Source: Pantoea agglomerans
Lineage (GTDB): Bacteria; Pseudomonadota; Gammaproteobacteria; Enterobacterales; Enterobacteriaceae
DNA length: 64,000 bases
Reading direction: 5' to 3'
Assembly (NCBI RefSeq): GCF_021397715.1
Contig: NZ_CP090207.1
Span: 3,658,001 to 3,722,000 of the forward strand
Position numbers and translations under genes: made by a program. The notes under the pieces were generated by a model. The model saw nothing but the letters and a program-made list of their open reading frames with translations, had not been told where the DNA came from and ran no database searches. Within the stretch, counting starts at the first letter, position 1, and every line of letters starts with the position of its first letter. Positions 12,595 through 29,571 of this stretch are shown here, piece after piece.

Positions 12595-13080
12595 TCAGGT
12601 CCGTACATTCCAGTCATCTGTGTACTGCACATTGCCATCAACATAACGCCAGGTGATTTTGTCGTACATCAGGGAAACAGATTCCATATGGTTAACCTGT
12701 AAATTACCGGTCATTTTGGTATTTGGCATTCCCGGATTGATGCCAGTAATTTTTACGCCCTCAATGGTCATAATAAAATAGCACTCTTCCTGTCCCGCAT
12801 AATTAATCCGATACCAGCGAATTTCGGCGCTTTTCAGCGTCTGTCCTGTTGCGACAGCCTTGTAAAGATAAGGGCTGGCACTATCGAATTCTTTTTCAAT
12901 CATCATTGGCGAGTGCGAGCGCTTACCGGTAATTTTACCGTTAGCACTGTCTACCGGAATGTTCAGGCCATGACTAAAACCGACAATTTCAATACTTCCT
13001 TCACGTTCCTGAACATCAACTGAACCTTTGATGTCAGCACCGCCGTCATCTTTGAGCCACATATACGCGGGAACAGGCAT
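12595..13080 (-). CDS. hcp: Hcp (TssD) T6SS tube protein, module 1
   Basis: Hexameric ring protein of the type VI secretion inner tube, also a carrier for small effectors. The 161 residues match the Hcp family: PAYMWLKDDGGADIKGSVDV at the start, EFDSASPYLYKAVATGQTLKSA in the middle, and KITWRYVDGN near the end. It closely resembles the second Hcp at 51397-51876 in the N-terminal half and in the ITW.Y.DGN tail. Here it is the last gene of a three-gene unit, after a Tlde1-like effector and a membrane protein. No T6SS sheath, baseplate or ATPase genes are in the window, so it is an orphan Hcp serving a system encoded elsewhere. Confidence 0.92.
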   Translation of the reverse strand: MPVPAYMWLKDDGGADIKGSVDVQEREGSIEIVGFSHGLNIPVDSANGKITGKRSHSPMMIEKEFDSASPYLYKAVATGQTLKSAEIRWYRINYAGQEECYFIMTIEGVKITGINPGMPNTKMTGNLQVNHMESVSLMYDKITWRYVDGNVQYTDDWNVRT

Positions 13081-13081
13081 T

Positions 13082-13603
13082 TTACAAACTCCTTTTGAAT
13101 GTCATTTTCTTTTTAATTAAGCTGTAGCAGGCAATCGTCAATAGCAGGTTTAAGACTACCAACGTCGCCAGAGTAAATGCTGAAAACATCTCTTCATCTG
13201 GTAAAAAAACGTGATAAGGCAGGCAGCGGAACAGTATCCAAAAAATAAATGTGAACGCGAATATCTTTGCTAATCGGCGTAATGTTGAAAAAGCCCACTC
13301 TTTAACCAGGAAAACCGATCTGGTTTTATGCCTGATGCTCTTGAAAACAGTGAGAGCCGCGCTCATGACAGGAACACCGATCAGTGTGTTTATTAAGAGA
13401 CTAAAGTAAAACTGTAACGCTTCCCAGGGCTCCGGATCAGGCTCACCCAGAATGAAATGGGTAAACCTCTCTGCGCTTTGAAAATCAAATAATGCCGTAA
13501 TTGCATCAACTAAACCATCATAGGGAACAACTTTAGCCACGATCAGCATAATTGCATTAAACAGCGCTATTTTGATAAAAAGATTAAGGGCATGTTTTGC
13601 CAT
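13082..13603 (-). CDS. Polytopic membrane protein, putative immunity to Tlde1-like effector
   Basis: The 173 residues carry about four hydrophobic segments: LFIKIALFNAIMLIVAKVV, FYFSLLINTLIGVPVMSAAL, IFAFTFIFWILF, and TLATLVVLNLLLTIACYSL. It overlaps the end of the effector gene and ends one base before the Hcp start, a position typical of T6SS immunity genes. The ATG at 13603 is preferred over the TTG at 13609 because GAGG sits nine bases before it. It has no resemblance to the lipoprotein at the matching place in the second module. Its role as immunity protein is inferred from gene order only. Confidence 0.6.
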   Translation of the reverse strand: MAKHALNLFIKIALFNAIMLIVAKVVPYDGLVDAITALFDFQSAERFTHFILGEPDPEPWEALQFYFSLLINTLIGVPVMSAALTVFKSIRHKTRSVFLVKEWAFSTLRRLAKIFAFTFIFWILFRCLPYHVFLPDEEMFSAFTLATLVVLNLLLTIACYSLIKKKMTFKRSL

Positions 13604-14099
13604 TGGCAATTACCTCAATCGTTCCGTAGGCCATTAGTTGCTTCATACAAGGAACCGCTATCTTTTGCGTTCTCAGTAATGCGTTACGTAACATGGCATA
13701 ATCAGAGTCATGCGGAAGCGTAATACATCCTTCGGATAGTGCGCCCGGATGCAAACGAAAGTTACCTCGCTTGACGTTCTCTACCCATGTGTAATCATCG
13801 ATCGTCCAATCATCCCGCCATATTGCGAACCATTCGGAATGCCTGAACGTAGCGCCGCTGGCAAAGTGGTTATAAATATCCCTGACACCGGCATTTAATT
13901 GTGATTTGAGCCCTCCCTGAGGGCGATCAACAATCCAGTATTTACCTGCTGGTACAGGCCCCTCTCCGGAAATCATTCCACAGGCTCCACGATTGCGGTA
14001 AGCGCCATTGCCAGAGAACGCTAAGAACGTTCCCACGCCCGGAAAGAATAAGGGTGAGTAGTAAGCATCATTAATTACAAACTTTCCATGTAAAGCCAT
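13584..14099 (-). CDS. Tlde1-like (DUF2778) T6SS effector, module 1
   Basis: Predicted T6SS effector of the L,D-transpeptidase-like Tlde1 group, which damages peptidoglycan in the target periplasm. The signature is in LHPGALSEGCITLP. Numbering from the upstream ATG at 14105, it contains H119, S124 and C127, the His/Cys pair of YkuD-type chemistry; subtract two for the chosen start. Upstream is GEGPVPAGKYWIVDRP, characteristic of the family. The ATG at 14099 is chosen because AAGGG lies six bases before it. No signal peptide is present, as expected for a cargo delivered by Hcp. It is the first gene of the unit effector, membrane protein, hcp. Confidence 0.82.
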   Translation of the reverse strand: MALHGKFVINDAYYSPLFFPGVGTFLAFSGNGAYRNRGACGMISGEGPVPAGKYWIVDRPQGGLKSQLNAGVRDIYNHFASGATFRHSEWFAIWRDDWTIDDYTWVENVKRGNFRLHPGALSEGCITLPHDSDYAMLRNALLRTQKIAVPCMKQLMAYGTIEVIANGKTCP

Positions 14100-14866
14100 A
14101 ATCATCCCTTATTCAGGCTAGTTGATTGATAATGCTACAGGCGATTTTCCAACCTTTATAGTGGAAGTCAGACCCATTGGAAAATTAATGAGGACAAAAG
14201 GGGTAAAGATTTACAATGATTATTATAAGATTGTTATAATTATATCGCTTTTGTTTAACATTCTGAAGGCAATGTTACTTTCATTATCTTTACCCGAGAC
14301 AAACACTCCATATAAGAGCGTTTGTGTAAATGATTTTTCAGGGAAAGATCGAGGAGTGATTATGCTGATTATCATATTTCGAAATTAAGCAAGGGCATGT
14401 CATTCGAACCAATAATATTTACAGTAAACTTTCATGGTAGCCGGTTCAGGAAACTGTGGCGGATGGGCCTGCGACAGGCCAGTAGCGGTAAGTAATAAAA
14501 GTAAGGTGTCAGACAAAGAGTCTGACGCAACGTCGTGCCTGTATTCTGACAGGCTTGTCTTTATCGGCCAGCCGCTATGATGACGTCCGGCTGTGGATGT
14601 TCATTTATTCGGGCACATTCTGAACTTGTGCTTTAGCTCAGACACTTTGACTAACGCCGCGTCTGGCGGCACCCCAACCTTATCTGGCCGATTGAATTTT
14701 GAGATGGATGCGCGCTCCAGCGTTCGCGGATCAGGTACCTGACTTATACCCAAACCCGGTACGGTTGAAAACATATGCAGCACGCTGAGTGACTGAGGTA
14801 CGCCCATTGAACATCCTCGTTTTTAAGAGCATGATCGCAATAATTTTTCACTGCTTACCCTCGATT
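14100..14866. other. Non-coding region between effector module 1 and HNH nuclease gene
   Basis: About 770 bases without a convincing gene. The part next to the effector (to about 14390) is very AT-rich and should hold its promoter. The middle (14466-14593) carries four consecutive small hairpins. The open frames here (for example 14122-14388 plus, 14601-14807 minus) have no ribosome binding site or recognisable product. Confidence 0.5.
14466..14593. repeat. Cluster of four inverted repeats
   Basis: Four hairpins follow each other: GGCCTG/CAGGCC with a 3-base loop (14466-14480), GTCAGAC/GTCTGAC with a 5-base loop (14508-14526), GCCTGT/ACAGGC with a 6-base loop (14537-14554), and CAGCCG/CGGCTG with a 13-base loop (14569-14593). 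No T-runs follow, so they are not ordinary terminators. They could be a structured RNA or a recombination or protein-binding region. Confidence 0.45.
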
Positions 14867-15739
14867 ATGACCTCAGGTAAAACGCTACAAGCCGCTATTT
14901 CCGATGTCGCTGTATGGCGCAAAGGTGACCAATGTGCACCGCACAAGCCTCTTTTGCTCCTCTACGTCTTATCTCAATACAGGAAAGGTCATTCCCGACT
15001 ATTTGATTACGGCAATGAAATTCACGAACCGTTAACCCGATTACTGATCGAGTTTGGTCCTAAAAGACGGGATTACTACCCGAATATGCCTTTCTGGCGC
15101 TTAAGGACTGATGGGTTCTGGACGCTGGAAAACAGCGAGAGTTGCAAACCACGTAAAGGCAACATCCAGCCGACAAAACGAGAATTAATTGAGAATCAGG
15201 TTGCCGGTGGGTTTGATGAGGAGAGTTACCAGACTCTGCAAAAAAATCCAGCCTTAATCGATAAACTGGCACAGCAGATTCTGACTGATCGCTTTCCGGA
15301 AAGCCTGCAGATAAAGCTGGCCGAACTGTTGGGTTTTGATTTAATTACGCTGATGAGAGCACGCGATCCACGTTTTCGCGATTTGATATTGCGGGCTTAT
15401 CACTCTCAATGTGCCATTTGCGGATATGACCTGCGACTGGATGGCGCGCTAGTCGGACTCGAGGCTGCGCATATACGCTGGAAGCAATATGGCGGACCTT
15501 GTGAAGTTAATAACGGGCTGGCGCTCTGCTCCGTACACCACTCTGCATTCGACAAGGGTGCCATCGGCATTGATGAAGATCTCAGGATTCAGATATCAGG
15601 TGGAATCAACCGTAGTCCGATGGTGGAGCAGCTTTTCTGGTCACTTGAGGGGCAAAGACTTCATCTGCCTAAAGATAAAATGCTGTGGCCTGCTGATCAG
15701 TTTATTGAGTGGCATCAGACGCAGGTGTTTAAGGCCTGA
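14867..15739 (+). CDS. SBD-HNH type IV restriction endonuclease (phosphorothioate-dependent type)
   Basis: Likely modification-dependent nuclease. The N-terminal part (about 10-90 from the chosen start) contains VWRKGDQCAPHKPLLLLYVL and YPNMPFWRLR, as in the sulfur-binding domain of ScoMcrA-like enzymes that cut phosphorothioated DNA. The C-terminal HNH domain shows the zinc pair C182/C185 (CAICG), H202 in LEAAHI, N215 in VNNGLALC, and H224/H225 (HHSAFD). The start is uncertain: the frame is open back to a GTG at 14789, with another ATG at 14831; I prefer 14867 (290 residues) because it starts just before the binding domain. It stands upstream of mcrBC in a defence block. No dnd genes are in the window. 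Confidence 0.72.
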   Translation: MTSGKTLQAAISDVAVWRKGDQCAPHKPLLLLYVLSQYRKGHSRLFDYGNEIHEPLTRLLIEFGPKRRDYYPNMPFWRLRTDGFWTLENSESCKPRKGNIQPTKRELIENQVAGGFDEESYQTLQKNPALIDKLAQQILTDRFPESLQIKLAELLGFDLITLMRARDPRFRDLILRAYHSQCAICGYDLRLDGALVGLEAAHIRWKQYGGPCEVNNGLALCSVHHSAFDKGAIGIDEDLRIQISGGINRSPMVEQLFWSLEGQRLHLPKDKMLWPADQFIEWHQTQVFKA

Positions 15740-16165
15740 GAGGCATAAGGGATTCAGCATTTCGATGTAAAGCTGGATAACTATTTCAGTGTATCCTGTG
15801 CCATAAGCCTCACAGATTAAATGAACCCCATTCATCCCGATGATAAATGTGGTCAGATATTGAAGATTCGTTTTGATCAGGGAATGGGGGCGTGATACTG
15901 AGGATTATTTACAGAATAGGGCTGTGAAAGAAGAAGGGTATCAGCAGGAGTTTGGCAACGCCTAGTGGTCATGAGATGCTGTAAGGGATTCGAGAGGGGA
16001 AGAAATACCGACCTTCCCGCAGCGAAAGGAATACTACAAATCCATATACCTTATCGAGAAAAAGTCTTAGGGAGGTATGCAAGCCCGCCCCAGGGATTAA
16101 TACAATGCAGTTAGAACGCATCATCTTAGTCAAAGAATAAGCAATGTCACAGCAGAGGAAAAGTC
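15740..16165. other. Intergenic region before mcrB
   Basis: I see no gene, strong hairpin or repeat in these 426 bases. The mcrB promoter probably lies in the last 150, where a weak TACAAT occurs near 16101. Confidence 0.4.
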
Positions 16166-18244
16166 ATGATGACTCTTGTAGATAGTGTCGAAGCAGGCAA
16201 GCTGACGATCAGTGAATTAATTGGTACCCTGGCGAAAGATAAAGATTACGCAGCTTCTAAGTGGGATCAGCGATACCGCGAATTTACGACCTTGCTACAG
16301 CAAACCTCAACTTTTACTAAGCCTGGAACGGATGATTTGGTCAAACGGCTTTGGTATGAACGTGGCAACGGTATTGCCAGTATTAGCCAGGGTGTTCCGT
16401 CTTTAGCGGAATATCAGCAGAGCCTTCCATTGCTTAGAGAACTAACCGAGCGTATTCGTCAGCAACCGGATGTAGCGACCTACCAATATGTTGGCGATGC
16501 TCTAAAGCAGGCCAAAGATACAGGGCTTCTGAAGCGTATGTATTGGAGTTTGAGAAATCGTGTCTTTGCCGCGTTTTCGCCAGGAACCTGCACCAGTACA
16601 GTAGATGAGAATGCGTTTACTAAAGCGGCAGATTTTCTGAATAAGAAATTCCACCTCGGTTTGGCTCTGAACGGTAATTGGTTGCAGAAAAACCATGAAT
16701 TGAAGCAAGCCATACACGCACATTCTCCCAATGCAGATCCCTATTACGTGAATATGGCTATTTGGCATCTCTATGAATTATTACGCGAGCGCGATAATGA
16801 GCAGAAACAGGAGAGACTATCCAGCATCACATTAACAACCAGTAGTGAGCTCACCGAAATTAAGCCCCTCTCACACTCACCAACTAACGTGATTTACTTT
16901 GGTCCACCAGGAACTGGGAAGACCTTAACGTTGCAGCAAAGGATGAAAGAGTACACTTCTCATGCTGTACCGGCCGATCGTGATGCCTGGCTGGATTCTC
17001 GCCTTGAATCGTTGAACTGGATGCAAGTCATAACCCTGGTACTGCTCGATCTTTGTAAACGAGCAAAAGTTCGCCAAATTATTGAGCATACGTGGTTTCA
17101 ACGTAAGGCATTATTAAATGGTCGTAATGGCAATTTATCGAATACTGCCTGGGCTGCTTTGCAATCCTATACCGTTCCCGAGTCGTTAACCGTTGATTAT
17201 AAGAATCGTCGTGAACCTACCGTATTTAACAAAACAGATAATAGCGAATGGTTGCTAGTTGATTCACAGCTCGAGCAAGTGGAGGATTTGGTAGAACTCT
17301 ACGCCGAACTTAAAAGCGGCCCTAAATCTGCCGAATCCATCCAGAGATTTGCGGTGGTTACTTTCCACCAATCTTACGGCTATGAAGAATTTATTGAGGG
17401 TATCCGCGCTCGCTCTGATGAGAGTGGCAATATCTCTTACCCTATTGAGCCGGGTATCTTTATGCGTCTGTGTCAGCGTGCCAATGCCGATCCAGCACAT
17501 CGCTACGCCATTTTCATTGATGAGATCAATCGCGGCAACATCTCCAAGATCTTTGGCGAGCTGATTTCGCTCATTGAAGTAGACAAGCGTGCAGGTATGT
17601 CCAATGCAATGAGCCTGCAACTGTCTTATAGCGGTGATCACTTCAGTGTACCTGGCAATGTCGACATCATCGGAGCCATGAACACTGCGGATCGTTCTTT
17701 AGCTCTGATGGACACGGCTTTGCGCCGTCGCTTTGACTTTATCGAGATGATGCCTGATCTCTCTTTGCTGAGTGGAAGTAAGGTGAAAGGCATAGAACTC
17801 GAGTCGTTGTTAGAGAAACTCAACAGCCGCATCGAAGCACTTTACGATCGTGAACATACGCTAGGGCATGCGTTCTTTATGCCGGTAAAAAATGCACTCG
17901 ATGCCGGTGATGAAGAAGCTGCGTTTAAACAATTGAAGATCGCATTCCAGAATAAGATCATTCCGCTGTTACAGGAATACTTTTTCGATGACTGGAACAA
18001 GATCAGGCTGGTGCTGGCAGACAACCAGAAACAAGACGACAGCCTGCAATTCGTGATTGAGAAAACCGACGATCTGGATACGCTTTTTGGTAACAATCAT
18101 TCTTTACGACGCCATGATCAGCAATCAACAGCTTACGAGCTCGAAGCATTTGATGAAGAGATCTGGAATATGCCACAGGCTTACCGCGCTATTTATCAGC
18201 CACAGCAGACCACTCTTGATGAGCAGGCTTTAAACCATGGGTGA
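16166..18244 (+). CDS. mcrB: McrB-type AAA+ GTPase of modification-dependent restriction
   Basis: NTP-driven translocase subunit of a McrBC system, which cuts DNA carrying modified cytosines. In 692 residues, the AAA+ core has Walker A GPPGTGKT (246-253), Walker B IFIDEINR (449-456) and the McrB signature MNTADRS with TALRRRF (505-523). The N-terminal 240 residues, which in this family recognise the modified base, do not look like the E. coli McrB DNA-binding domain, so the target modification may differ. An unusually long insert (about 260-395) separates Walker A from the conserved FHQSYGYEEFIEG. The start may be the first or second of two adjacent ATGs (16166 or 16169). It overlaps mcrC by 8 bases. 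Confidence 0.9.
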   Translation: MMTLVDSVEAGKLTISELIGTLAKDKDYAASKWDQRYREFTTLLQQTSTFTKPGTDDLVKRLWYERGNGIASISQGVPSLAEYQQSLPLLRELTERIRQQPDVATYQYVGDALKQAKDTGLLKRMYWSLRNRVFAAFSPGTCTSTVDENAFTKAADFLNKKFHLGLALNGNWLQKNHELKQAIHAHSPNADPYYVNMAIWHLYELLRERDNEQKQERLSSITLTTSSELTEIKPLSHSPTNVIYFGPPGTGKTLTLQQRMKEYTSHAVPADRDAWLDSRLESLNWMQVITLVLLDLCKRAKVRQIIEHTWFQRKALLNGRNGNLSNTAWAALQSYTVPESLTVDYKNRREPTVFNKTDNSEWLLVDSQLEQVEDLVELYAELKSGPKSAESIQRFAVVTFHQSYGYEEFIEGIRARSDESGNISYPIEPGIFMRLCQRANADPAHRYAIFIDEINRGNISKIFGELISLIEVDKRAGMSNAMSLQLSYSGDHFSVPGNVDIIGAMNTADRSLALMDTALRRRFDFIEMMPDLSLLSGSKVKGIELESLLEKLNSRIEALYDREHTLGHAFFMPVKNALDAGDEEAAFKQLKIAFQNKIIPLLQEYFFDDWNKIRLVLADNQKQDDSLQFVIEKTDDLDTLFGNNHSLRRHDQQSTAYELEAFDEEIWNMPQAYRAIYQPQQTTLDEQALNHG

Positions 18245-19523
18245 AGTGATCTCTGTTTTTGAATATGACCTGCTAGGGGGTGGGAAAGCGGCTTCAGTTG
18301 GTGCAAAGCTGGTCCCTCAACAGGTCTTTGATTATTTAGAAGAACTTAGCCTAACAAGTATTCAAGGAAGCCAGTTTCTAAAACTCACCTCCCGCTCAGG
18401 TTTTAAATTGCTTCAGGTGCAAAACTACGCGGGGATGCTTTCAACACCTCACGGTTTCCAACTTGAGATACTACCCAAGGTTGGCAAAAACCTCACAGCT
18501 GCGAGTGCGCGAGAAATATTGCTTACGATGCTAAGCCATCTACCAGGGTTTCGACATATTCAAACCCAGCAGGCCATTCTTCAAGCACAGCGCATGCCTT
18601 TGCTCGAGATTTTTATCAGCCAGTTTTTGCAAAGCGTCAGCCAATTGCTTAAACAAGGTTTACGATCAGACTATGTGAGCAAGCAAGGTAATCTGTCTTT
18701 TATGAAGGGCAAGCTGATGCTTTCCGCGCAGTTGCGGCATAACGTGGTGAATCGTCATAAATTTTGTGTCGATTATGATGACTACATGCCGGATTGTTCA
18801 GCCAATCGGCTCTTACACTCCGCGCTAGATAAGCTACTTAGCCTGAAGCTTTCATCTGAGAATCAACGCTGGCTTTACGAACTGCGCTTTGCTTTCGACG
18901 GTATTCCACTGAGTCGGGATATTGAAAGCGATATAAACAGCCTACGCCTCGAGCGTGGTATGGCTCATTACAGCGAGCCAATGGCCTGGGCGCAGTTGAT
19001 CCTGACAGGAATGAGTCCGAGTACCTTGCAAGGAAACACCAATGCAATTTCACTCCTATTCCCTATGGAAGCGCTATTTGAATCCTTTGTTGCACAAACC
19101 CTCCCCTACGAACTTCCTCCTCACCTTAAAGTTAAACCACAGGCTGCCACTTATTCCCTTGTGAAGCATGGGCTTAACGAATGCTTTAAACTTCGCCCAG
19201 ATTTGTTGATTCAATCGCGCCAGCCGGTTCAAACCAAAATGGTGATGGATACAAAATGGAAGCTGGTGAATAGCAGCCAGCAAAAAAAATCACTCTACGG
19301 ACTAGCACAAGCCGACTTCTATCAAATGTTTGCCTACGGCCAAAAATATCTTGATGGAACTGGTGAAATGTACCTGATCTACCCTGCGCACGATGACTTT
19401 AACCAACCGATACAGCGGCACTTTGCTTTTTCAGAAACTTTAAAATTATGGGTTGTGCCATACCAGATAACAGCAAAGCGTGGGGAGAGAATGATGTGGG
19501 CAAGTCCAAAACATAGAAGCTGA
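18237..19523 (+). CDS. mcrC: McrC-type nuclease subunit
   Basis: Endonuclease partner of McrB. The 428 residues have the family N-terminus (ISVFEYDLL) and a C-terminal PD-(D/E)xK nuclease with D322 in LRPDLLI and D338/K340 in VMDTKWK, the expected spacing. The central part includes LEILPKVGKN, typical of McrC. It overlaps mcrB by 8 bases, showing co-translation. Only 150 bases separate it from hsdM, so the two restriction systems are adjacent but probably separate transcription units. Base composition is more AT-rich than the core genes of the window. Confidence 0.9.
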   Translation: MGEVISVFEYDLLGGGKAASVGAKLVPQQVFDYLEELSLTSIQGSQFLKLTSRSGFKLLQVQNYAGMLSTPHGFQLEILPKVGKNLTAASAREILLTMLSHLPGFRHIQTQQAILQAQRMPLLEIFISQFLQSVSQLLKQGLRSDYVSKQGNLSFMKGKLMLSAQLRHNVVNRHKFCVDYDDYMPDCSANRLLHSALDKLLSLKLSSENQRWLYELRFAFDGIPLSRDIESDINSLRLERGMAHYSEPMAWAQLILTGMSPSTLQGNTNAISLLFPMEALFESFVAQTLPYELPPHLKVKPQAATYSLVKHGLNECFKLRPDLLIQSRQPVQTKMVMDTKWKLVNSSQQKKSLYGLAQADFYQMFAYGQKYLDGTGEMYLIYPAHDDFNQPIQRHFAFSETLKLWVVPYQITAKRGERMMWASPKHRS

Positions 19524-19673
19524 AGATGACTTTCCCTAACATGAATTGACACTGCATGCACCTCACTAGCCCAGACTCGAAAGCCTTGCTACTAGCAAGA
19601 AGCTTTTATCAAACGTACAATCAAACCCTAGAGTAGCCTTTTCAAAAAAGAATCGATTTAAACAGGACTTATA

Positions 19674-22265
19674 GTGAATAAACAGCAGCTTGCGGCAAAA
19701 ATCTGGGAATCAGCCAACCAGATGCGTTCTAAAATTGAAGCCAACGAATACAAAGATTACATACTCGGTTTCATCTTCTACAAATACCTAAGCGACCAGC
19801 TGGTGCAGTTTGTCACCAGACAGGGTATGACGCCCGAAGACATCAAAGCCCTCAATGAAGAAGACGCCGACACCGTTAAATACGTGCAAGACAACCTGGG
19901 CTACTTTATAGCCTACGATAATCTGTTTTCTACATGGATTGATCCAACATCCGAATTTGCTGAATCTAACGTGCGTGATGCGCTCTCCGCCTTTAGCCGT
20001 TTGATTTCGCCAACATACAAAAAACTGTTTGAAGGCATTTTTACCACCTTAGAAACAGGTTTAAGCAAACTGGGTGAAAGTGCTGGCAAACGCACCAAAG
20101 CCATCAGCGATCTACTGCACCTGATCAAAAGCATCCCCATGAACAGTAATCAAGGGTATGACGTCCTGGGTTACATTTACGAATACCTGATTGAAAAATT
20201 TGCCGCCAATGCTGGTAAAAAAGCCGGTGAGTTTTACACGCCTCATGAAGTCTCGGTACTCATGTCAAACATCATCGCCCATGAGTTAAAACACAAAGAT
20301 ACTATTAAAATTTACGACCCCACTTCCGGCTCGGGTTCGTTGCTGATCAATATCGGTGAGGCGTTCGAAAAATATGCTAAAAACAAAGACAGCATCACCT
20401 ATTACGCTCAAGAGTTAAAAGCCAACACCTACAACCTAACCCGTATGAACCTCATCATGCGCGGTATTAAGGCCAGCAACATTAAAACCCGTAATGGCGA
20501 CACCCTGGAAGATGATTGGCCGTATTTTGATGAAAGCGATCCTCAAGGCTCATACTACACCCTGCATGTCGATGCAGTGGTGTCCAACCCGCCTTATTCA
20601 CAAAACTGGGACCCAAGCTTTAAAGACAGCGATCCACGCTATTCACGTTTTGGCCTGGCACCTAAAACCAAAGCCGATTTTGCTTTTTTGCTGCACGACC
20701 TCTACCACCTAAAACCCGATGGCATTATGGCTATTGTACTGCCCCATGGTGTCTTGTTCCGTGGCGGTGAAGAAGGTGAAATTCGCAAGCAACTCATTGA
20801 GCAGAATCACATTGATACGGTTATCGGTTTACCGGCCAATATCTTTTTTGGTACCGGCATTCCTACGGTGATTTTGGTACTCAAGCAAAAACGCCAAAAC
20901 ACTGATGTATTGGTGGTCGATGCCTCTAGGCACTTTATGAAAGAAGGCAAAAACAATAAACTTCAAGCCAGTGATATCAAGCGCATTACTGATGCGGTGA
21001 TTAACCGTGAAAGTATCGACAAGTTCTCGCAACTTGTGAGCAAACAAACCCTGCGCGACAACGGCTACAACCTAAATCTACCGCGCTATGTGGATTCTTC
21101 TGCAGCGGCGCAAAGCTGGGATTTACACGCCACCATGCTCGGCGGCATTCCCAACAGCGAAATTGCCGGGCTACACCTTTTTTGGCAAGCTTTCCCGCTA
21201 TTGCGCGGTACTCTGTTTACGCCAAAATCCCCCGCTTACAGTGAGCTGGCCATTGACAAACAAGACGTCAACGCCAGCATCAGTGAGCACCCGCAAGTAT
21301 CAGCGTTTATCAGCGCCTACAGCCAGGCCTTCAATGGCTTTGATGAACAGCTAAACACCCAGTTAATACAAAACTGGCAAAACGTACAGCGTAACCAACA
21401 AGAAACGGTATTAACTACCGAGCTATTTGCTCGCCTAGCCCCGATTGCCTTAATCGACAAATACCAGGCTTACCAATTTCTAAACAACCAATGGCAAATC
21501 ATCAGCGCCGATTTAGAAATGATGCAAACCGAAGGCTTTGCCGCCACCAGACAAGTTGACCCTAATATCGTAATCAAGAAGAAAGACGGTAAAGACACCG
21601 AAGTACAAGACGGCTGGAAAGGCCACATACTGCCCTTTGATTTAGTGCAACAAACTTACTTAAGTGATGACTTACAGGCTCTGGCAGTTAAAGAAACTCG
21701 CTTGGCGGAAATCGCCAGCACGCTTGAAGAAATTTTAGAATCCCTGACTGAAGAAGAAAAAGAACAAGATACGGTAAAAGAGAGCAAAGACGGCTTTGCC
21801 AATACCGAGTTAAGCAAAGCCGCTAAGGCCTTCATGAAAGAACAAAAAGACAGCAAAGTTAAATTGGCAGAAGAAAGCTATGAAGCCAAAATCATTCGTG
21901 CAAACAAATTAATCGACGAAGAAAAATCCCTGAAAAAAACGGTCAAAGATGCCGTCACTGCCCTGCACTTAAAAACCAAAAAAACTATCGAAGCCTTAAA
22001 CACTGAACAAGTGAATAATCTGCTGCATCTTAAATGGATTGCGCCATTAAGCACCGAACTCGCAGCCATGCCAACCGCCGTGATTAGCCAGCTTACCAGC
22101 CAGATACAAGCCCTTGCTGATAAATATGCCGTCACCTATTCGCAAGTGGCAAATGAGATAAAAACCACAGAGCAAGAACTGGCGGATATTATGGGCGAGC
22201 TCACAGGTAATGAGTTTGATATGCAGGGCTTGACTGAACTCACCAGCTTACTAAAGGGCGAATAA
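19674..22265 (+). CDS. hsdM: HsdM, type I restriction-modification N6-adenine methyltransferase
   Basis: Methyltransferase subunit of a type I system. The N-terminal helical domain starts QQLAAKIWESANQMRSK; the catalytic domain has the AdoMet motif DPTSGSGS (215-222) and NPPY (305-308), the adenine-methylase signature. The start is a GTG. At 863 residues it is far longer than the roughly 500 residues of classical HsdM. The extra C-terminal 380 residues are rich in Glu, Lys and Ala, with likely coiled coils around 650-780. It is followed one base later by hsdS. Lysine codons are mostly AAA, and the whole hsd block is AT-richer than the flanking core genes, suggesting transfer. Confidence 0.94.
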   Translation: MNKQQLAAKIWESANQMRSKIEANEYKDYILGFIFYKYLSDQLVQFVTRQGMTPEDIKALNEEDADTVKYVQDNLGYFIAYDNLFSTWIDPTSEFAESNVRDALSAFSRLISPTYKKLFEGIFTTLETGLSKLGESAGKRTKAISDLLHLIKSIPMNSNQGYDVLGYIYEYLIEKFAANAGKKAGEFYTPHEVSVLMSNIIAHELKHKDTIKIYDPTSGSGSLLINIGEAFEKYAKNKDSITYYAQELKANTYNLTRMNLIMRGIKASNIKTRNGDTLEDDWPYFDESDPQGSYYTLHVDAVVSNPPYSQNWDPSFKDSDPRYSRFGLAPKTKADFAFLLHDLYHLKPDGIMAIVLPHGVLFRGGEEGEIRKQLIEQNHIDTVIGLPANIFFGTGIPTVILVLKQKRQNTDVLVVDASRHFMKEGKNNKLQASDIKRITDAVINRESIDKFSQLVSKQTLRDNGYNLNLPRYVDSSAAAQSWDLHATMLGGIPNSEIAGLHLFWQAFPLLRGTLFTPKSPAYSELAIDKQDVNASISEHPQVSAFISAYSQAFNGFDEQLNTQLIQNWQNVQRNQQETVLTTELFARLAPIALIDKYQAYQFLNNQWQIISADLEMMQTEGFAATRQVDPNIVIKKKDGKDTEVQDGWKGHILPFDLVQQTYLSDDLQALAVKETRLAEIASTLEEILESLTEEEKEQDTVKESKDGFANTELSKAAKAFMKEQKDSKVKLAEESYEAKIIRANKLIDEEKSLKKTVKDAVTALHLKTKKTIEALNTEQVNNLLHLKWIAPLSTELAAMPTAVISQLTSQIQALADKYAVTYSQVANEIKTTEQELADIMGELTGNEFDMQGLTELTSLLKGE

Positions 22266-22266
22266 G

Positions 22267-23493
22267 ATGAGTGTGAATAGCAATACTCCAGAGATTCGCT
22301 TTGAAGTGTTTAGCGGGGAATGGGAGGAGAAGGTATTAGGTGAATTAGCTGAAATTGTTCGTGGCGCCAGTCCTCGCCCGATTGAAGATCCTAAATGGTT
22401 CGATAGTCAATCAAGTGTTGGTTGGTTACGTATTAGAGATGTGACCGAGCAAGATGGCAGGATTCATTATTTAGAGCAGAGAATTTCAAAACTTGGCCAA
22501 GAAAAAACTCGTGTATTACATGAGAAACATCTGCTGTTAAGCATAGCAGCGAGTGTTGGTAAACCTGTAGTTAACTATGTTGAAACAGGAGTTCACGATG
22601 GTTTCTTAATATTCAAAAAACCACTTTTTGAACTTGAGTTTATGTATCAATGGTTAAAATCCTTTGAAGCAAAGTGGCAACAATTTGGCCAGCCCGGAAG
22701 CCAGGTTAACCTTAATTCCGATATTGTTAAAAGTCAGGTCGTAGCAATTCCTACAAATGAAGAACAAACCGCCATCGGCAACTACTTCCAGAAACTCGAC
22801 TCGCTTATCAACCAACACCAACAAAAGCATGATAAACTCAGCAACTTCAAAAAAGCCATGCTGGAAAAAATGTTCCCCAAACAAGGCGAAACTATACCAG
22901 AAATCCGCTTTAAGGGGTTTAGTGAGAAGTGGGAGGAGAAAGGGCTAGGTACTGATGTCGCTGAAATTATAGGGGGCGGTACACCCAGCACGTCAATTTC
23001 TGAATTTTGGGACGGTGATATTGATTGGTATTCACCTACTGAAATTGGAAACAATGTATATGCTGGAGGTAGTCAGAAAAAAATTACCGCTCTAGGTCTG
23101 AAAAGTTCTTCTGCAAAGATACTTCCCGCTGGTAATACGATTCTCTTTACTAGTAGAGCAGGCATAGGCGACATGGCAATTCTTGCTAAACCTGGTGCAA
23201 CTAATCAAGGTTTTCAATCATTTATTGTTAAAGAAGGATTTTCACCCTATTTCATCTATTCAGCCGGCAAACAAATCAAAGAGTTTGCGCTTAAACATGC
23301 ATCTGGCTCCACTTTTTTAGAAATTTCAGGTAAGCAACTTGGGCGCATGAAAATTCTTATGCCTAGCTTAGAGGAACAAACTGCCATCGGTAGCTTTTTC
23401 CAGAAACTCGACAACCTGATCAACCAGCACCAACAACAAATCGCCAAACTTAACAATATCAAGCAGGCCTGCTTAAGTAAAATGTTTGTCTAA
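22267..23493 (+). CDS. hsdS: HsdS, type I specificity subunit
   Basis: DNA-recognition subunit with two target recognition domains in 408 residues. Each half opens with a repeat (PEIRFEVFSGEWEEKVLG near residue 8; PEIRFKGFSEKWEEKGLG near 210) and closes with another (EEQTAIGNYFQKLDSLINQHQQ near 165; EEQTAIGSFFQKLDNLINQHQQ near 370) that forms the conserved coiled-coil spacer. The two recognition domains themselves differ, so the site should be bipartite and asymmetric. It lies one base after hsdM and 14 bases before hsdR. The repeats are direct, so they favour domain exchange or duplication rather than inversion. Confidence 0.94.
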   Translation: MSVNSNTPEIRFEVFSGEWEEKVLGELAEIVRGASPRPIEDPKWFDSQSSVGWLRIRDVTEQDGRIHYLEQRISKLGQEKTRVLHEKHLLLSIAASVGKPVVNYVETGVHDGFLIFKKPLFELEFMYQWLKSFEAKWQQFGQPGSQVNLNSDIVKSQVVAIPTNEEQTAIGNYFQKLDSLINQHQQKHDKLSNFKKAMLEKMFPKQGETIPEIRFKGFSEKWEEKGLGTDVAEIIGGGTPSTSISEFWDGDIDWYSPTEIGNNVYAGGSQKKITALGLKSSSAKILPAGNTILFTSRAGIGDMAILAKPGATNQGFQSFIVKEGFSPYFIYSAGKQIKEFALKHASGSTFLEISGKQLGRMKILMPSLEEQTAIGSFFQKLDNLINQHQQQIAKLNNIKQACLSKMFV

Positions 23494-23507
23494 CAGGGAG
23501 CGCCATC

Positions 23508-26500
23508 ATGATTACCTTTAAAACCGAAGCGAAATTTGAGCAGGCCTTTATTGAAGTACTGACCCATAAAGGCTGGGAAACAGAGATACTCAAAAACAAA
23601 ACCGAAGCGGATTTACTGCAAAACTGGGCAAACATTTTGTTTGAAAACAATCGCCAGCGGGATCGTTTAAACGATGTCCCGCTTACCGCGACTGAAATGC
23701 AGCAAATTATTGAGCAAATCAAAGAGCTTAAAACCCCGCTCAAACTCAACGGTTTAATTAACGGTAAAACCGTGGCGATTAAGCGCGATAACCCAGCCGA
23801 TACCTTGCATATAGGCAAAGAAGTCAGCTTAAAAATATATGATCGCCAGGAAATTGCCGCTGGCCAAAGCCGTTACCAAATAGTGCAGCAGCCTAAATTT
23901 GAACGCAGTAGCCCTTTGCGTAACGACAGACGCGGTGATGTGCTGCTACTGATTAACGGTATGCCGGTGATCCATGTAGAGCTAAAGCGCAGCGGCATTC
24001 CGGTTAGCCAGGCAGTGAACCAAATTGAGAAGTACAGCAAAGAGGGTGTATTTAGCGGCTTACTTTCGCTTATCCAGGTCTATGTGGCAATGGAACCTAA
24101 TGAGACAAAATACTTTGCCAATCCTGGGCTCGACGGCAAGTTTAACCCCGACTATCAATTTAACTGGGCCGATTTTAATAACGAACCCATGAACCACTGG
24201 AAAGACATCGCCTCTACCTTGCTTTCCATCCCTATGGCGCACCAGTTGATTGGCTTTTATACCGTCGCCGACGATACCGACGGCGTGCTTAAGGTAATGC
24301 GAAGTTATCAGTATTACGCTGCTAATGCGATATCTGACAAAGTGGCCAAAACCAACTGGCAACAACTGGGTAGCGCGGCCAATAATCCCGATCGCCTCGG
24401 GGGTTACGTATGGCATACCACAGGTTCGGGTAAAACCATGACCAGCTTTAAATCGGCGCAGTTGATTGCACAATCCAAAGATGCCGATAAAGTGATTTTT
24501 TTAATGGACAGGATTGAGCTGGGCACCCAGTCGCTCGCGGAATACCGCAACTTTGCTGGCGATGGCGAAGACGTTCAAGCCACTGAAAATACTCACGTAC
24601 TGATTACCAAATTAAAAAGCACTGCCCCCGCCGATACCTTAATTGTTAGCTCTATTCAAAAGATGAGTAATATTTTTGAAGCGGTAGACGATGAAGGCGC
24701 GGCCACGAACTCTGCGGATATTGAAAAAATTCGCGCTAAGCGTTTGGTGTTTATTGTCGATGAGGCGCACCGTTCTACCTTTGGCGGCATGCTGATTATT
24801 ATTAAATGTACCTTTCCGCGCGCCTTGTTTTTTGGCTTTACTGGTACACCAATTCAAGAAGACAACGAAAAAAACGGCAATACCACCAGTACCGTATTTG
24901 GCAACGAGCTACACCGCTATAGCATCGCCGATGGCATACGCGATGGCAACGTGCTGGGCTTCGACCCTTACAAAGTTCCAACTTTTAGAGACAGTGATCT
25001 AAGACAAGCGGTAGCGTTAGAGCAAGCCAAAGCCAACACGGTGATGGAGGCCATGGATAACCCAGCCAAAAAGAAAAAATTTAACCACTTTATGAAAGAT
25101 GTACCTATGGCTGGCCATAAAGACGCCACAGGCAAGTACCACAAAGGCATTGAAGACTATGTTCCTAAAAGCCAATATTTAAGCGAAGCTCACCAAGCCA
25201 AAGTGGTGGAAGATATTCTGCATAAATGGGATGTGCTCAGCCAAGGCAATAAATTTCACGCCATTTTGGCCACTAACAGCATTGCTGAAGCCATTGATTA
25301 TTATCGTCGTTTAAAAGCCGCCAAACCTGAACTTAAAGTTTCAGCCCTGTTTGACCCGAACATTGATAATGACGGTAGTGGCGACCGTGACCCCACCTTT
25401 AAAGGCGATGGTCTGGAAGAAATTATGGCCGACTATAACGCGCGTTACGGTCAAGATTTTGATTTTGCCCGCCATGCGGCCTTCAAAAAAGATTTGGCGG
25501 CACGCCTTGCCCATAAAAAGCCCTACGAGCGCATTCATACCGAGCCTTCGAAGCAATTAGATTTATTGATTGTTGTAGATCAAATGCTCACTGGCTTTGA
25601 CTCTAAATGGCTTAACACTTTGTATTTAGACAAAGTGATTAGATACCAAAACATTATTCAAGCGTTCTCACGCACCAATCGTTTATTTGGCCCCGACAAA
25701 CCCCACGGCATCATCCGTTATTACCGCTATCCGCACACCATGGAGAAGCACATTATCGATGCGGTAAAACTGTATTCCGGCGACAGACCTATTGGCTTAT
25801 TTGTTGATAGGTTAGAAAGCAATCTTAAAGCCATGAATGAATTAGTGACTGACATTACAGAGCTGTTTATCAATGCCGGTGTTGATAATTTTGAAAAGCT
25901 GCCAGACGATATAGAAGCCTGTGCCCAATTTGCCAAATTATTTAATACCTTTAGCCAGCACCTGGAAGCGGCTAAAGTACAAGGTCTGCATTGGGAACAG
26001 TCAGCCTATTTCTTTACTGAAAATGATGTAGAACACGAGGTAACGCTGGCCATAGACGAACAAACTTATCTGAGCCTGGTCCTGCGTTACAAAGAGTTGG
26101 CAGGCAAAAGTGATGGTGGTGGCGAAGGTGGCGACAATGTGCCTTTTGATATCAATGGTTATTTAACTGAAGTAGATACTGGCAAAATCGATGCCGACTA
26201 TATGAACAGCCGCTTTGATAAATTTTTAAAAGAGCTGAACATACACCAGGACTCTGCGAGCATTGAAACCACATTAAATGAGCTGCACAAGTCGTTTGCA
26301 TCGCTCACCCAAAACGAACAAAAGTACGCAAAACTCTTCTTGCACGACTTGCAGCGCGGCGATGCGCAGTTAATTGAAGGCCATACTTTCAGAGACTACA
26401 TCAACACCTACAAAGATAACGCTGAAAATGCGCAATTAAACGCAGTTGTTAATGCTCTTGGTTTAGAGAAAGGACTACTCATCGCATTAATGGCTGATAG

Positions 26501-26717
26501 TGTTAATGATAAGAATCTCAACGAGTTTGGTCGCTTTGACGCATTAAAAGATTCCGTAGACAAAGCGAAAGCCAAAGTCTATTTTGAAAAGCAAGATGGC
26601 GTAACCTTACCTCTGTTTAAGCTAAATATTCGCATTGATCAGTTTTTAAAGCAGTTTATCTTTGCGCGAACGAATGATTTCTTAAGTGGCAAAGATGTTG
26701 TTGATGTCGTGACGTGA
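23508..26717 (+). CDS. hsdR: HsdR, type I restriction endonuclease subunit
   Basis: Motor and nuclease subunit of the type I complex, 1069 residues. The N-terminal nuclease domain has the PD-(D/E)xK triad D144, E158 and K160 (GDVLLL, HVELK). The SF2 helicase core follows with Walker A TTGSGKT (304-310), the DEAH box IVDEAH (416-421) and motif III FGFTGTP. The C-terminal part beyond about 870 is the HsdM-binding helical region. A GAGC-containing site precedes the ATG. The coding sequence runs into a CGTGA pentamer repeat, and its TGA stop is provided by the second repeat unit. Confidence 0.94.
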   Translation: MITFKTEAKFEQAFIEVLTHKGWETEILKNKTEADLLQNWANILFENNRQRDRLNDVPLTATEMQQIIEQIKELKTPLKLNGLINGKTVAIKRDNPADTLHIGKEVSLKIYDRQEIAAGQSRYQIVQQPKFERSSPLRNDRRGDVLLLINGMPVIHVELKRSGIPVSQAVNQIEKYSKEGVFSGLLSLIQVYVAMEPNETKYFANPGLDGKFNPDYQFNWADFNNEPMNHWKDIASTLLSIPMAHQLIGFYTVADDTDGVLKVMRSYQYYAANAISDKVAKTNWQQLGSAANNPDRLGGYVWHTTGSGKTMTSFKSAQLIAQSKDADKVIFLMDRIELGTQSLAEYRNFAGDGEDVQATENTHVLITKLKSTAPADTLIVSSIQKMSNIFEAVDDEGAATNSADIEKIRAKRLVFIVDEAHRSTFGGMLIIIKCTFPRALFFGFTGTPIQEDNEKNGNTTSTVFGNELHRYSIADGIRDGNVLGFDPYKVPTFRDSDLRQAVALEQAKANTVMEAMDNPAKKKKFNHFMKDVPMAGHKDATGKYHKGIEDYVPKSQYLSEAHQAKVVEDILHKWDVLSQGNKFHAILATNSIAEAIDYYRRLKAAKPELKVSALFDPNIDNDGSGDRDPTFKGDGLEEIMADYNARYGQDFDFARHAAFKKDLAARLAHKKPYERIHTEPSKQLDLLIVVDQMLTGFDSKWLNTLYLDKVIRYQNIIQAFSRTNRLFGPDKPHGIIRYYRYPHTMEKHIIDAVKLYSGDRPIGLFVDRLESNLKAMNELVTDITELFINAGVDNFEKLPDDIEACAQFAKLFNTFSQHLEAAKVQGLHWEQSAYFFTENDVEHEVTLAIDEQTYLSLVLRYKELAGKSDGGGEGGDNVPFDINGYLTEVDTGKIDADYMNSRFDKFLKELNIHQDSASIETTLNELHKSFASLTQNEQKYAKLFLHDLQRGDAQLIEGHTFRDYINTYKDNAENAQLNAVVNALGLEKGLLIALMADSVNDKNLNEFGRFDALKDSVDKAKAKVYFEKQDGVTLPLFKLNIRIDQFLKQFIFARTNDFLSGKDVVDVVT

Positions 26718-26742
26718 CGTGACGTGACGTGACGTGACGTGA
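26708..26742. repeat. CGTGA pentamer tandem repeat (7 units) over the hsdR stop
   Basis: Seven perfect CGTGA units, followed by CGTGG. The hsdR stop codon (26715-26717) lies in the second unit. Because the reading frame enters the tract at a fixed phase, copy-number change does not alter the protein. Confidence 0.9.
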
Positions 26743-26760
26743 CGTGGCGGATGTTCCTCC

Positions 26761-26804
26761 CTCAGCATAATTCATGCCACACTTATGCTGAGTGTTCTTT
26801 TCTT
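26761..26804 (+). terminator. Terminator of the hsd operon
   Basis: The perfect 10-bp arms CTCAGCATAA (26761-26770) and TTATGCTGAG (26783-26792) are followed by a T-rich tract (TGTTCTTTTCTT). Confidence 0.7.
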
Positions 26805-26894
26805 AAAGGTACTGCATCATAAACTCGATAAAAGTTAATGACCCCGTTATGCGGGATATTTACAACTGTCTGGGCTAAGTTGTGTGTCTGAAAA

Positions 26895-27534
26895 TAGTAA
26901 ATTAGTAAATTAGTAAATTAGTAAATTAGCAAATTAGCAAATTAGCAAATTAGCAAATTAGCAAATTAGTAAATTAGTAAATTATTAAATTATTAAATTA
27001 GTAAATTAGTAAATTAGTAAATTAGTAAATTAGTAAATTAGTAAATTAGTAAATCAGTAAATTAGTAAATTAGTAAATTAGTAAATCAGTAAATCAGTAA
27101 ATCAGTAAATCAGTAAATCAGTAAATCAGTAAATCAGTAAATCAGTAAATCAGTAAATCAGTAAATCAGTAAATCAGTAAATCAGTAAATCAGTAAATCA
27201 GTAAATCAGTAAATCAGTAAATCAGTAAATCAGTAAATCAGTAAATCAGTAAATCAGTAAATCAGTAAATCAGTAAATCAGTAAATCAGTAAATCAGTAA
27301 ATCAGTAAATCAGTAAATCAGTAAATCAGTAAATCAGTAAATCAGTAAATCAGTAAATCAGTAAATCAGTAAATCAGTAAATCAGTAAATCAGTAAATCA
27401 GTAAATCAGTAAATCAGTAAATCAGTAAATCAGTAAATCAGTAAATCAGTAAATCAGTAAATCAGTAAATTAGTAAATTAGTAAATTAGTAAATCAGTAA
27501 ATTAGTAAATTAGTAAATTAGTAAATTAGTAAAA
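26895..27534. repeat. 80-unit octamer tandem array (CAGTAAAT/TAGTAAAT)
   Basis: Eighty contiguous 8-base units without any insertion or deletion over 640 bases. In order: 4 TAGTAAAT, 5 TAGCAAAT, 2 TAGTAAAT, 2 TATTAAAT, 7 TAGTAAAT, 1 CAGTAAAT, 3 TAGTAAAT, 48 identical CAGTAAAT (27087-27470), 3 TAGTAAAT, 1 CAGTAAAT, 3 TAGTAAAT and a terminal TAGTAAAA. All six frames contain stops, so it is non-coding. There are no unique spacers, so it is not a CRISPR array. The homogeneous core with diverged edges suggests recent expansion by slippage. It lies between the type I operon terminator and the integrase relic. Confidence 0.95.
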
Positions 27535-27577
27535 AATAATGCATGTCCAATGCATTTCTTATAGAAAATCTTTTTAA

Positions 27578-28844
27578 TCAGCCCATATTTAATTTAGCAA
27601 AATAAAACGGACTAACCCCCTTCTCACAAATCGCGTCGAGATAATCAGCTCACCATTGCAGCATTAGCCTGCGCTCTCCCAGATGCTCGGCCTTATGAAT
27701 ATAAGCCACACGTACAGAGTTACGCTCCATATGGCTCATCTGCCGCTCTACTGCATCCCTCGACCATAGGACCATAGACCCTACTTAATCAATGAGCTAC
27801 AAGCCATCGTCCTGAAAACATGCCCACATACTTCTTTTTTTGTGTCATAACCCATTACTCGTAGAGCCTTGTTCACCGTGTTCTCACTCATCGGTTTACG
27901 CGGATCGTGATCGCCAACGAAGATCAGCTCTCGGTTCCCATTCATGCTTTTGATCTTTTCCAAAATAGCTAAGGCCTGACGCGACAAGGGAACAAGATGT
28001 GGAGTCCGCATCTTTGAACCACGTTGAGAATGCTTAACACCTTCAAGTGGCTCACGTTCTCCCGGAATCGTCCACATGGCCGTTTCAAAATCTACTTCTG
28101 ACCAGCGGGCAAAATGTAGCTCGCTTGAACGGATGAAAACTAACAAAGTGAGTACCACGGCCAACCTGGTTAACGGTCTGCCGGAATAATGATCAATGCG
28201 ATGAAGTAATTCAGGAATACGGTTAAGTTCTAATGCAGCACGATGCTGTCTTTTCGCCGTAGCAACCGCACCGGCAATCTCCTGCGCGGGGTTGTAATCG
28301 ATTAAGCCACTCTGCACAGCAAAGCGCATAATCGCGGTAGTACGCTGCTGTAAACGGGCGGCGACTTCAAGGGTCCGGATGACTCGACTGCTTTGATGGG
28401 TTCAAGTAGGTCTCGCGTTTTCAGTTCTGCCATGTTCCGCTTACCGATAGCAGTAAAGAGATTATCTTCCAGGCTTTTCAATACACGAGCACTATGCGAT
28501 GCCGACCACTTCTGATTGCTGGCATGCCAGTCTCTGGCGACCACTTCAAACGTTATTGCCTCTTGCTCCAGCTCTACCTTAAGGGCTTCCTTGTTCTCAC
28601 TGGGATCGACGCTGTTTGCTAACAGCTTACGCGCTTCATCCCGGCGCGCTCTGGCATCAGCCAGCGAAACTTCAGGATATTTTCCCAACTCCAGCATCTT
28701 CTCTTTGCCACCAAAGCGATAACGAAGCCGTCAGTATTTAGAACCGCCAGGGTGAACCAGCAACACCATGCCTTAGCCATCAGCCAGTTTATAGGCTTTT
28801 ACTTCAGATCTTTCAGAACGAACCTTCACACCACTTAGAGTCAT
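27578..28844 (-). pseudogene. P4-type tyrosine integrase, multiply inactivated
   Basis: Nearly full-length remains of a phage/island integrase of the P4 family (about 420 codons). Starting from the ATG at 28844-28842 the reading is: a DUF4102-like N-terminus with in-frame stops TAA (28773-28775) and TGA (28732-28734), then YRFGGKEKMLELGKYPEVSLADARARRDEARKLL in its known place, a one-base loss near 28371-28376, the core domain with LVFIRSSELHFARW, a TAG at 27781-27783, an 8-base tandem duplication of GACCATAG (27762-27777), the conserved SRDAVERQMSHMERN segment, and a TGA at 27650-27652. It points away from leuX. With at least six lesions it cannot be functional, so the element is fixed in place. 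Confidence 0.88.
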
Positions 28845-29016
28845 GTCGAGTATCCTTTCGAGGGTTCGCGTGCGTATAAATATAATCGAACGGAGATCAA
28901 CCCGCAGACACACCCACATCAGTTAGTTGATGCAGCTAGAATCAGGTTGGCTTAAGGTAAGTGATTACGGCGACTGAAAAGCGAGGATGTCCCTGCAGTT
29001 ACCAAACCCCAGAAAC

Positions 29017-29041
29017 AAAAAAAGCCACCCGTAGGTGACTT
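29017..29041 (-). terminator. Terminator of tRNA-Leu
   Basis: On the minus strand AGTCACC-TAC-GGGTGGCT (one G-U pair) is followed by seven T residues, just downstream of leuX. Confidence 0.65.
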
Positions 29042-29052
29042 GATTGCATACT

Positions 29053-29137
29053 TGGTGCCGAAGGCCGGACTCGAACCGGCACATCTTTCGATGGTTGATT
29101 TTGAATCAACTGCGTCTACCGATTTCGCCACTTCGGC
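29053..29137 (-). tRNA. leuX: tRNA-Leu(CAA)
   Basis: 85 bases with encoded CCA. The acceptor arms GCCGAAG and CTTCGGC pair perfectly, a variable arm typical of leucine tRNAs is present, and the anticodon loop TTCAAAA gives anticodon CAA. The T-arm GGTTCGAGTCC is intact. leuX is a well-known integration site for islands in enterobacteria; here its 3' end faces a decayed integrase. The tRNA looks complete, as is usual when an island restores the 3' end. Confidence 0.97.
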
Positions 29138-29165
29138 ACTGAAGAGGATGCGGAAAACGTTGGGG

Positions 29166-29193
29166 ATTATACCGTTACGGCCACCATGCGCAA
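29166..29193 (-). promoter_or_regulatory. leuX promoter
   Basis: On the minus strand a TATAAT -10 (29166-29171) lies 16 bases after TTGCGC (29188-29193), with a GC-rich discriminator (CCCC) downstream, about 30 bases before the tRNA. Confidence 0.7.
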
Positions 29194-29571
29194 CACTATT
29201 CATCCGGGTTGTGCATTAAGCGGCGAAAAAAACAGCGTAGCGTGATATTGCGCGCACGGCCATACGTTGGCCCGGTAATTTGTCCGCTGGCTGGCTACTC
29301 GCTGAACAGCACTGCCCTGCTCCTGCAACGATAAATTATGCCGCGTCCGATGTCGTCATACCTATCATGCCCACACGCCCGTTTCATCCCTCTCCATACG
29401 AAAAACTCACAACACCCCCGCTTCCCGCGCGTCCTGCTCCCGAACCCCGTTCTCAATCCCCGATCAACACCCCAAAATAAAAGAGCCAACCTCACGGTTG
29501 ACCCCTTTTGCATGCTCAGCATTGGGCATCAGCGATGCCCATTAGCACTCATTGTTGACAGGATGAGCACC
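29194..29571. other. Intergenic region between leuX and DUF2382 genes
   Basis: No gene is apparent. A minus-strand terminator at 29473-29503 closes the stress-protein pair. The remainder shows nothing I can assign. Confidence 0.45.
29473..29503 (-). terminator. Terminator of the DUF2382 gene pair
   Basis: On the minus strand GTCAACC-GTGA-GGTTGGC is followed by TCTTTTATTTT. Confidence 0.75.

Follow-up and report, generated by a model that had tools for sequence, protein, structure and literature searches.

A 64,000-nucleotide stretch of Pantoea agglomerans DNA (assembly GCF_021397715.1, contig NZ_CP090207.1, positions 3,658,001 to 3,722,000; hereafter the window, to which all coordinates refer) carries three restriction systems in a row: a nuclease with a sulfur-binding domain and an HNH domain (SBD-HNH), McrBC, and the Type I system HsdMSR. 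Their six genes are all open and all on the plus strand, from the SBD-HNH start codon at 14867 to the end of hsdR at 26717. The island is anchored by leuX, a tRNA-Leu (caa) gene at 29053-29137 on the minus strand, 2.3 kb from the end of the six-gene block. The locus is very probably a composite defence island at leuX, in which three independently working restriction systems were joined in at least two steps. The initial annotation correctly gave the row of systems, their common strand and the leuX anchor. Its reading of one acquired defence island is contradicted by a junction at 15884-15888, which is of Pantoea type on the left and of Ewingella type on the right.

Assembly of the leuX island

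The 3′ flank of the SBD-HNH gene (15735-15888) is common to Pantoea genome G010 at 91% identity, and the match stops at 15888. From 15884 to 16171, the window matches the region upstream of mcrB in Ewingella at 83%. The two matches overlap by the five bases ATGGG (15884-15888). In Ewingella, this sequence closes a DUF1173 gene of 447 residues, of which the window retains only the tail (15884-16070, plus strand). No SBD-HNH match was found in G010, whose contig stops about 18 bases past the shared stretch; this contig end is presumably IS903-like. As two island pieces can be separated to within five bases, stacks of this type can evidently be built up piecemeal and need not be delivered whole. 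As a first step, the SBD-HNH gene would already have been resident in the leuX island of Pantoea. As a second, an mcrB-mcrC-hsdM-hsdS-hsdR segment, beside a now-broken integrase, would have joined it at 15884-15888, cutting the DUF1173 gene.

Family profiles and motifs agree on the identities of the three systems, as initially annotated, and judged by these comparisons the homologies of the six genes are far beyond chance. Catalytic motifs are carried by the five proteins checked. The genes mcrB and mcrC overlap by 8 bp and the hsd genes lie 1 and 14 bp apart, with gaps of 426 and 150 bp between systems. The G+C content in 1-kb windows is 0.32-0.50 at 12-29 kb, compared with 0.46-0.58 at 8-12 and 29-34 kb. 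Elsewhere in the host genome, 15 kb of a plasmid-sized contig match 32 plasmid records, every one of them from Pantoea.

The SBD-HNH protein (14867-15739, plus strand, 290 residues) belongs to the phosphorothioate-DNA restriction family, matching NF045808 ('phosphorothioated DNA-binding restriction endonuclease') with 449.9 bits at a cut-off of 180. Its ATG lies within a longer frame starting at 14789, of which the profile covers residues 32-315. A phmmer search of the PDB matched it to ScoMcrA and other sulfur-binding domains. The motifs HKPLLLL, PFWRL and AHI...NNG...HH are present; according to PMC7461809, the sulfur-binding motif consists of HK or HR, then P and a run of L, plus PF-L-W, and is accompanied by the HNH residues. 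The closest relatives were found in Pantoea genomes G050 (91% identity), G057 (90%), G059 (a broken gene, with pieces at 85% and 92%) and G058 (77.5%). In a tree of 22 rows, with the broken G059 copy left out, the window protein is joined first by G050 and G057 (99/98) and next by G058 (100/100). Within their leuX islands, G050, G057 and G059 carry the gene in the orientation seen in the window, at a distance of about 18, 35 and 23 kb from leuX, respectively. Window-type McrBC or HsdMSR was not found near SBD-HNH in any of these four genomes; the G057 island holds a more distant McrBC (45% and 29%), and G057 and G058 have distantly related HsdM genes. By identity and tree position, the window SBD-HNH is of a Pantoea lineage and appears well established in the leuX island of this genus.

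McrB (16166-18244, plus strand, 692 residues) is an NxxD-type GTPase with a Walker A motif, DEINRGN and MNTAD; it matches Pfam AAA_5 and the McrB structures 6ut3, 6ut6 and 6hz4. McrC (18237-19523, plus strand, 428 residues) is a PD-(D/E)xK nuclease (PF10117, 327 bits; motif RPD...DTK). The K-12 equivalog cut-offs were not reached (McrB 147 vs 637 bits, McrC 101 vs 338 bits). On this profile evidence, both are assigned to the McrBC family and not to the K-12 equivalogs. McrB is 92.5% identical to a protein of Enterobacter ENT03, followed by Buttiauxella (91%), Erwinia S63 (90%), E. coli (89%), Pantoea G001 (88%) and Pantoea G052 (81%). McrBC of this clade was found in leuX islands of E. coli KSC9, genome G399, Enterobacter, Buttiauxella, G001 and G052; in the last two it stands without window-type SBD-HNH or HsdMSR. 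Two allele types of an insertion in McrB (window residues ~290-370) are mixed across genera in the alignment, which suggests recombination inside mcrB.

HsdMSR has the features of a Type I system, namely N6-methylase motifs, two HsdS recognition domains and a nuclease-motor HsdR. HsdM (19674-22265, plus strand, 863 residues), an adenine methyltransferase with a long C-terminal extension, matches TIGR00497 (338 bits, cut-off 242.75), N6_Mtase and, over residues 1-858, PADLOC PDLC03022. It scores higher against a Streptococcus protein (379 bits) than against EcoR124 HsdM (253 bits), which has 520 residues. HsdS (22267-23493, plus strand, 408 residues) matches PF01420 in two stretches (138 bits). 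HsdR (23508-26717, plus strand, 1069 residues) matches TIGR00348 (327 bits, cut-off 284.55), HSDR_N, SWI2/SNF2 and EcoR124_C, and its best solved relative is EcoR124 HsdR (2w00). With respect to the EcoR124-like Type IC subfamily, HsdR and HsdM give a mixed picture. The HsdM and HsdR identities are 91% and 93% to Yersinia thracica, 86% and 85% to genome G411, 85% and 89% to a Shewanella conjugative plasmid, and 90% (first 786 residues) and 88% to a record titled Martelella alba BGMRC 2031. The Shewanella plasmid carries HsdMSR without the other two systems. Its HsdS is 82-94% identical to that of the window in the second half and 21-26% in the first recognition domain; this comparison shows an exchange of recognition domains. 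None of 5426 E. coli genomes holds 80% of the window HsdMSR stretch. The first ~166 bases of hsdM are matched by 25 E. coli records (16 chromosomal places and nine plasmids). At two such places (L066, 13566-13778; L107, 7950-8150), a short HsdM N-terminal stub is followed by an Eco57I-like methylase.

Each system therefore occurs without the other two: SBD-HNH in three Pantoea leuX islands, McrBC in G001 and G052, and HsdMSR on the Shewanella plasmid. This largely separate occurrence speaks against the single island initially proposed, and it stops short of a complete three-way split. In the Yersinia and Martelella records (L092 and L073), McrC lies directly upstream of HsdM as in the window, the Yersinia McrC being truncated. 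The spacer between the two genes (19524-19673) is homologous in both records and in E. coli CFSAN018748 (L066), where HsdM is a 71-residue stub, with 75-83% identity over 114-128 bases. Since the McrC-HsdM spacer is shared by four lineages, and the Yersinia and Martelella records have an integrase-like gene after hsdR, McrBC and HsdMSR seem to travel as a single unit and may have arrived jointly.

Several points weigh against the assembly proposed here: (i) the G058 SBD-HNH gene lies 566 kb from leuX, i.e. the gene is not fixed there; (ii) the McrB tree is poorly resolved, with 2 of 15 inner branches starred; (iii) the non-Pantoea affinity of McrB is drawn from identities and one supported group of eight that includes Erwinia; (iv) the junction is defined by a single relative per side; and (v) SBD-HNH adjoins McrBC also in E. 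coli and G399, so that the two may share a history in which SBD-HNH was replaced later on. The gene immediately upstream of McrBC is SBD-HNH in E. coli KSC9, E. coli W and G399. Compared with the window, however, these linked pairs are 89% identical in McrB and only 54-55% in SBD-HNH, and such unequal divergence of neighbours indicates different histories of the two.

Co-occurrence was counted from both sides. The SBD-HNH sample comprised 20 other regions, namely those of all four relatives in the genus and of 16 of the 17 other genomes of the order that passed the cut-off (G128 was left out). One held window-type McrBC (G399), one HsdMSR (G411), and none both. Among 36 McrC loci, two had window-type HsdMSR, one had SBD-HNH on the opposite strand, and none had both. 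These counts are lower bounds, as several loci lie near a contig end; Type I genes of ~23-39% identity near SBD-HNH or McrC (e.g. L046, L056, L070 and L096) were not counted as window-type HsdMSR. Across the sampled loci, the triad as such is thus not conserved. Relatives were also seen in viral contigs, with SBD-HNH at 57-78% in six loci and HsdM at 51-62% in 11. By tblastn of all 17 viral loci, only L158 has two systems, HsdMSR and a distant McrBC.

These counts bear on a stepwise assembly in which the pairing of SBD-HNH with McrBC was kept by selection for complementary targets, and not by a shared hot spot. The pairing recurs, in diverged form, in E. coli and G399, and at least 80% of the KSC9 SBD-HNH-McrBC stretch is present in 294 of 5426 E. 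coli genomes (80% of window 14000-29300 in none of them). Selection for the pairing is nevertheless distinctly unlikely, as just one region or locus on either side of the survey combines the two, and as leuX is a hot spot for both, location alone suffices as an explanation. Less likely still, and by a good margin improbable, is the arrival of all three systems together as one island integrated at leuX. The single strand, the one low-G+C stretch, the one leuX integrase and the SBD-HNH genes that precede McrBC in KSC9, E. coli W and G399 would agree with it, but not the Pantoea affinity of SBD-HNH, its low identity to the linked copies next to the 89% of McrB, the junction, or the three Pantoea leuX islands with SBD-HNH alone. 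That all six genes work as a single co-regulated and interacting system, in which modification sensors cooperate with a Type I enzyme, is extremely unlikely: the common strand, the close spacing within mcrBC and hsdMSR and the conserved McrBC-HsdMSR junction fit, but the gaps between systems and the subsets found without the others do not, and a promoter and terminator scan was unusable (11 promoter-like sites, shuffle mean 22.0).

Predicted targets and the McrB N-terminal domain

The initial idea of complementary restriction, with SBD-HNH acting on phosphorothioated DNA and the Type I enzyme on DNA lacking host adenine methylation, is an inference, supported by the families to which the proteins are assigned. 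The sulfur-binding domain would bind phosphorothioated DNA, probably at GpsAAC/GpsTTC, and the HNH domain would cut nearby. McrBC would be a translocating nuclease driven by GTP, with part of McrB locating the target. HsdMSR would methylate adenine at a bipartite site and cut DNA without that mark. Incoming DNA would face three unrelated tests. The SBD-HNH site is a best guess by analogy: enzymes with only ~28% identity to EcoWI were found in tests to read the same GpsAAC/GpsTTC sequence (PMC7461809), and the window protein has 57% and 54% identity to the two members of the family in E. coli W. DndC was not found in the host genome, nor over the cut-off in any of 14 control genomes, and the Ssp genes were not searched. 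A genome without DndC is as expected for the host of a phosphorothioate-dependent nuclease (PMC7461809).

For McrBC, the DUF3578/ADAM methylcytosine-binding domain was not found in McrB by Pfam, and residues 1-215 (16166-16810, plus strand) matched no Pfam family over its cut-off. Destruction of modified DNA by this McrBC, as initially assumed, and cutting of modified cytosine in particular, is not established, because the known recognition domain was not found in its McrB. A single C5-methyltransferase was found in the host genome; with 460 residues, it resembles Dcm, and the product of the neighbouring gene, of 158 residues, is Vsr-like. K-12 tolerates a Dcm/Vsr set together with its own McrBC.

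Residues 1-215 are predicted by AlphaFold2 to be all-helical (predicted local distance difference test, pLDDT, 92; predicted template modelling score, pTM, 0.89). Foldseek returned nothing for this model at E 0.001 or better (best E 0.46). With VIA-align, DNA glycosylases took ranks 1-14, with a Z of 6.8 for MjOgg (160 residues, 4.5 Å), 5.8 for a further glycosylase and then 4.2-3.7, next to 3.6 for the first unrelated row, and such Z values can stem from a common arrangement. Comparison by hhalign with Nth and MutY profiles gave probabilities below 1% (positive control 100%), the observed scores of four tests of the glycosylase link were attained by 19, 51, 33 and 4 of 100 shuffles, and PF00730 was missing from the McrB Pfam matches at E up to 1. 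A PDB profile search with the domain returned designed filaments, a ribosomal protein and a Mediator subunit, and zero glycosylases. The modelled domain thus weakly resembles DNA glycosylases in structure and not in sequence.

It is tentatively possible, if on the doubtful side, that McrB of this clade senses its target via an HhH-GPD glycosylase-like base-flipping domain, an enzyme turned recognition module. At the position that would match the glycosylase catalytic Asp, as read by eye from the alignment, the close clade has D147 and three distant relatives have N or A. Such a domain would be a new type of McrBC specificity domain, reading some modified or damaged base, perhaps in phage DNA. 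A class-wide search with the N-terminal domain found it in 2 of 369 genomes (the host's own and G600). The same clade of McrB is found in the leuX islands of E. coli W and of hundreds of further E. coli genomes; as E. coli W is a common laboratory strain, the target of this widespread McrBC clade is directly testable. According to Bell and colleagues (PMC11090510), GTPase domains of McrB often have insertions that likely encode specificity domains, and the window McrB has an insertion of ~120 residues after Walker A, which is poorly modelled.

Known systems of the same kind

The arrangement is already known in kind, and the leuX stack is an ordinary type of defence island. The closest case is the leuX island of E. 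coli W (NC_017635), with the same first three genes in the same order and on the same strand, at the same end of the island, and 89% identity in McrB. Its order is SBD-HNH, McrB, McrC, a hypothetical gene, an HsdM-family methylase and HsdS; genes for HerA and a kinase follow at some distance. It differs from the window in its SBD-HNH (54%) and in having a different methylase/specificity (M/S) pair instead of HsdMSR. E. coli W is described in PMC3032704 as restriction-minus, lacking hsdMRS, mcrBC and mrr. Annotated in its leuX island (L127, L128) are McrB/McrC family proteins, two phosphorothioate-dependent nucleases and two M/S sets. EcoWI-like SBD-HNH enzymes are of the same family as the window protein, and E. 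coli W is the source strain of EcoWI (PMC7461809). The published mass of EcoWI, 33.4 kDa (PMC7461809), fits the integrase-side gene of E. coli W (33.41 vs 33.31 kDa), an assignment that is not settled.

The Martelella and Yersinia records share the order of McrBC and HsdMSR, the spacer and the integrase-like gene after hsdR with the window; their HsdS recognition domains differ from the window's. SBD-HNH was not seen in either, but the Martelella locus starts 0.3 kb before mcrB and the Yersinia mcrC is truncated. The E. coli immigration control region (hsd, mcrBC and mrr; PMC12707154) likewise clusters Type I and Type IV systems in a variable locus. That region lies between yjiA and yjiN, whereas the window stack is at the leuX hot spot itself (PMC12707154). 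Its second modification-dependent enzyme is Mrr or GmrSD, compared with SBD-HNH in the window, and K-12 McrB has a methylcytosine domain whereas none was detected in the window McrB. Among the defence hot spots of E. coli, leuX is number 37 (PMC12707154), P4-like satellites use this hot spot (PMC10121019), and the K-12 branch of McrBC often occurs alongside Type I systems (PMC11090510). Among the titles and abstracts listed in a literature search on McrBC, none describes this triad or a glycosylase-like McrB domain.

Flanks of the defence genes

Between the Type I genes and leuX lies a broken tyrosine integrase gene (27781-28697, minus strand; PF00589, PF22022 and PF13356) in two overlapping open pieces (27781-28329 and 28302-28697). 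As the integrase is broken, the island is probably unable to move by itself. A search of the window for exact 12-base matches to 28901-29137 found five, all isolated. Those to the tRNA part lie only outside the island (36063, 46371 and 57170), and one non-tRNA match lies inside the SBD-HNH gene (15192). Given where these matches fall, a repeat of the leuX end does not mark the far boundary of the island.

Two repeat tracts were noted at and beyond the end of hsdR. At 26708-26746, 7.8 perfect copies of CGTGA run across the stop codon, and a change in copy number could alter the last HsdR residues. At 26892-27533, between hsdR and the integrase, an 8-base tandem repeat (AAATCAGT) occurs in about 80 copies; the Martelella record has the same flanks, but a short repeat only. 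On the other side of the defence genes, beside SBD-HNH, type VI secretion system cargo is encoded at 12595-14105 on the minus strand (Hcp, a small protein and Tlde1). Relatives of this cargo occur in Pantoea G059 (tlde1 89%, small protein 74%), and tlde1 is also close to SBD-HNH in G059, on the same side, and, broken, in G057, on the other side.

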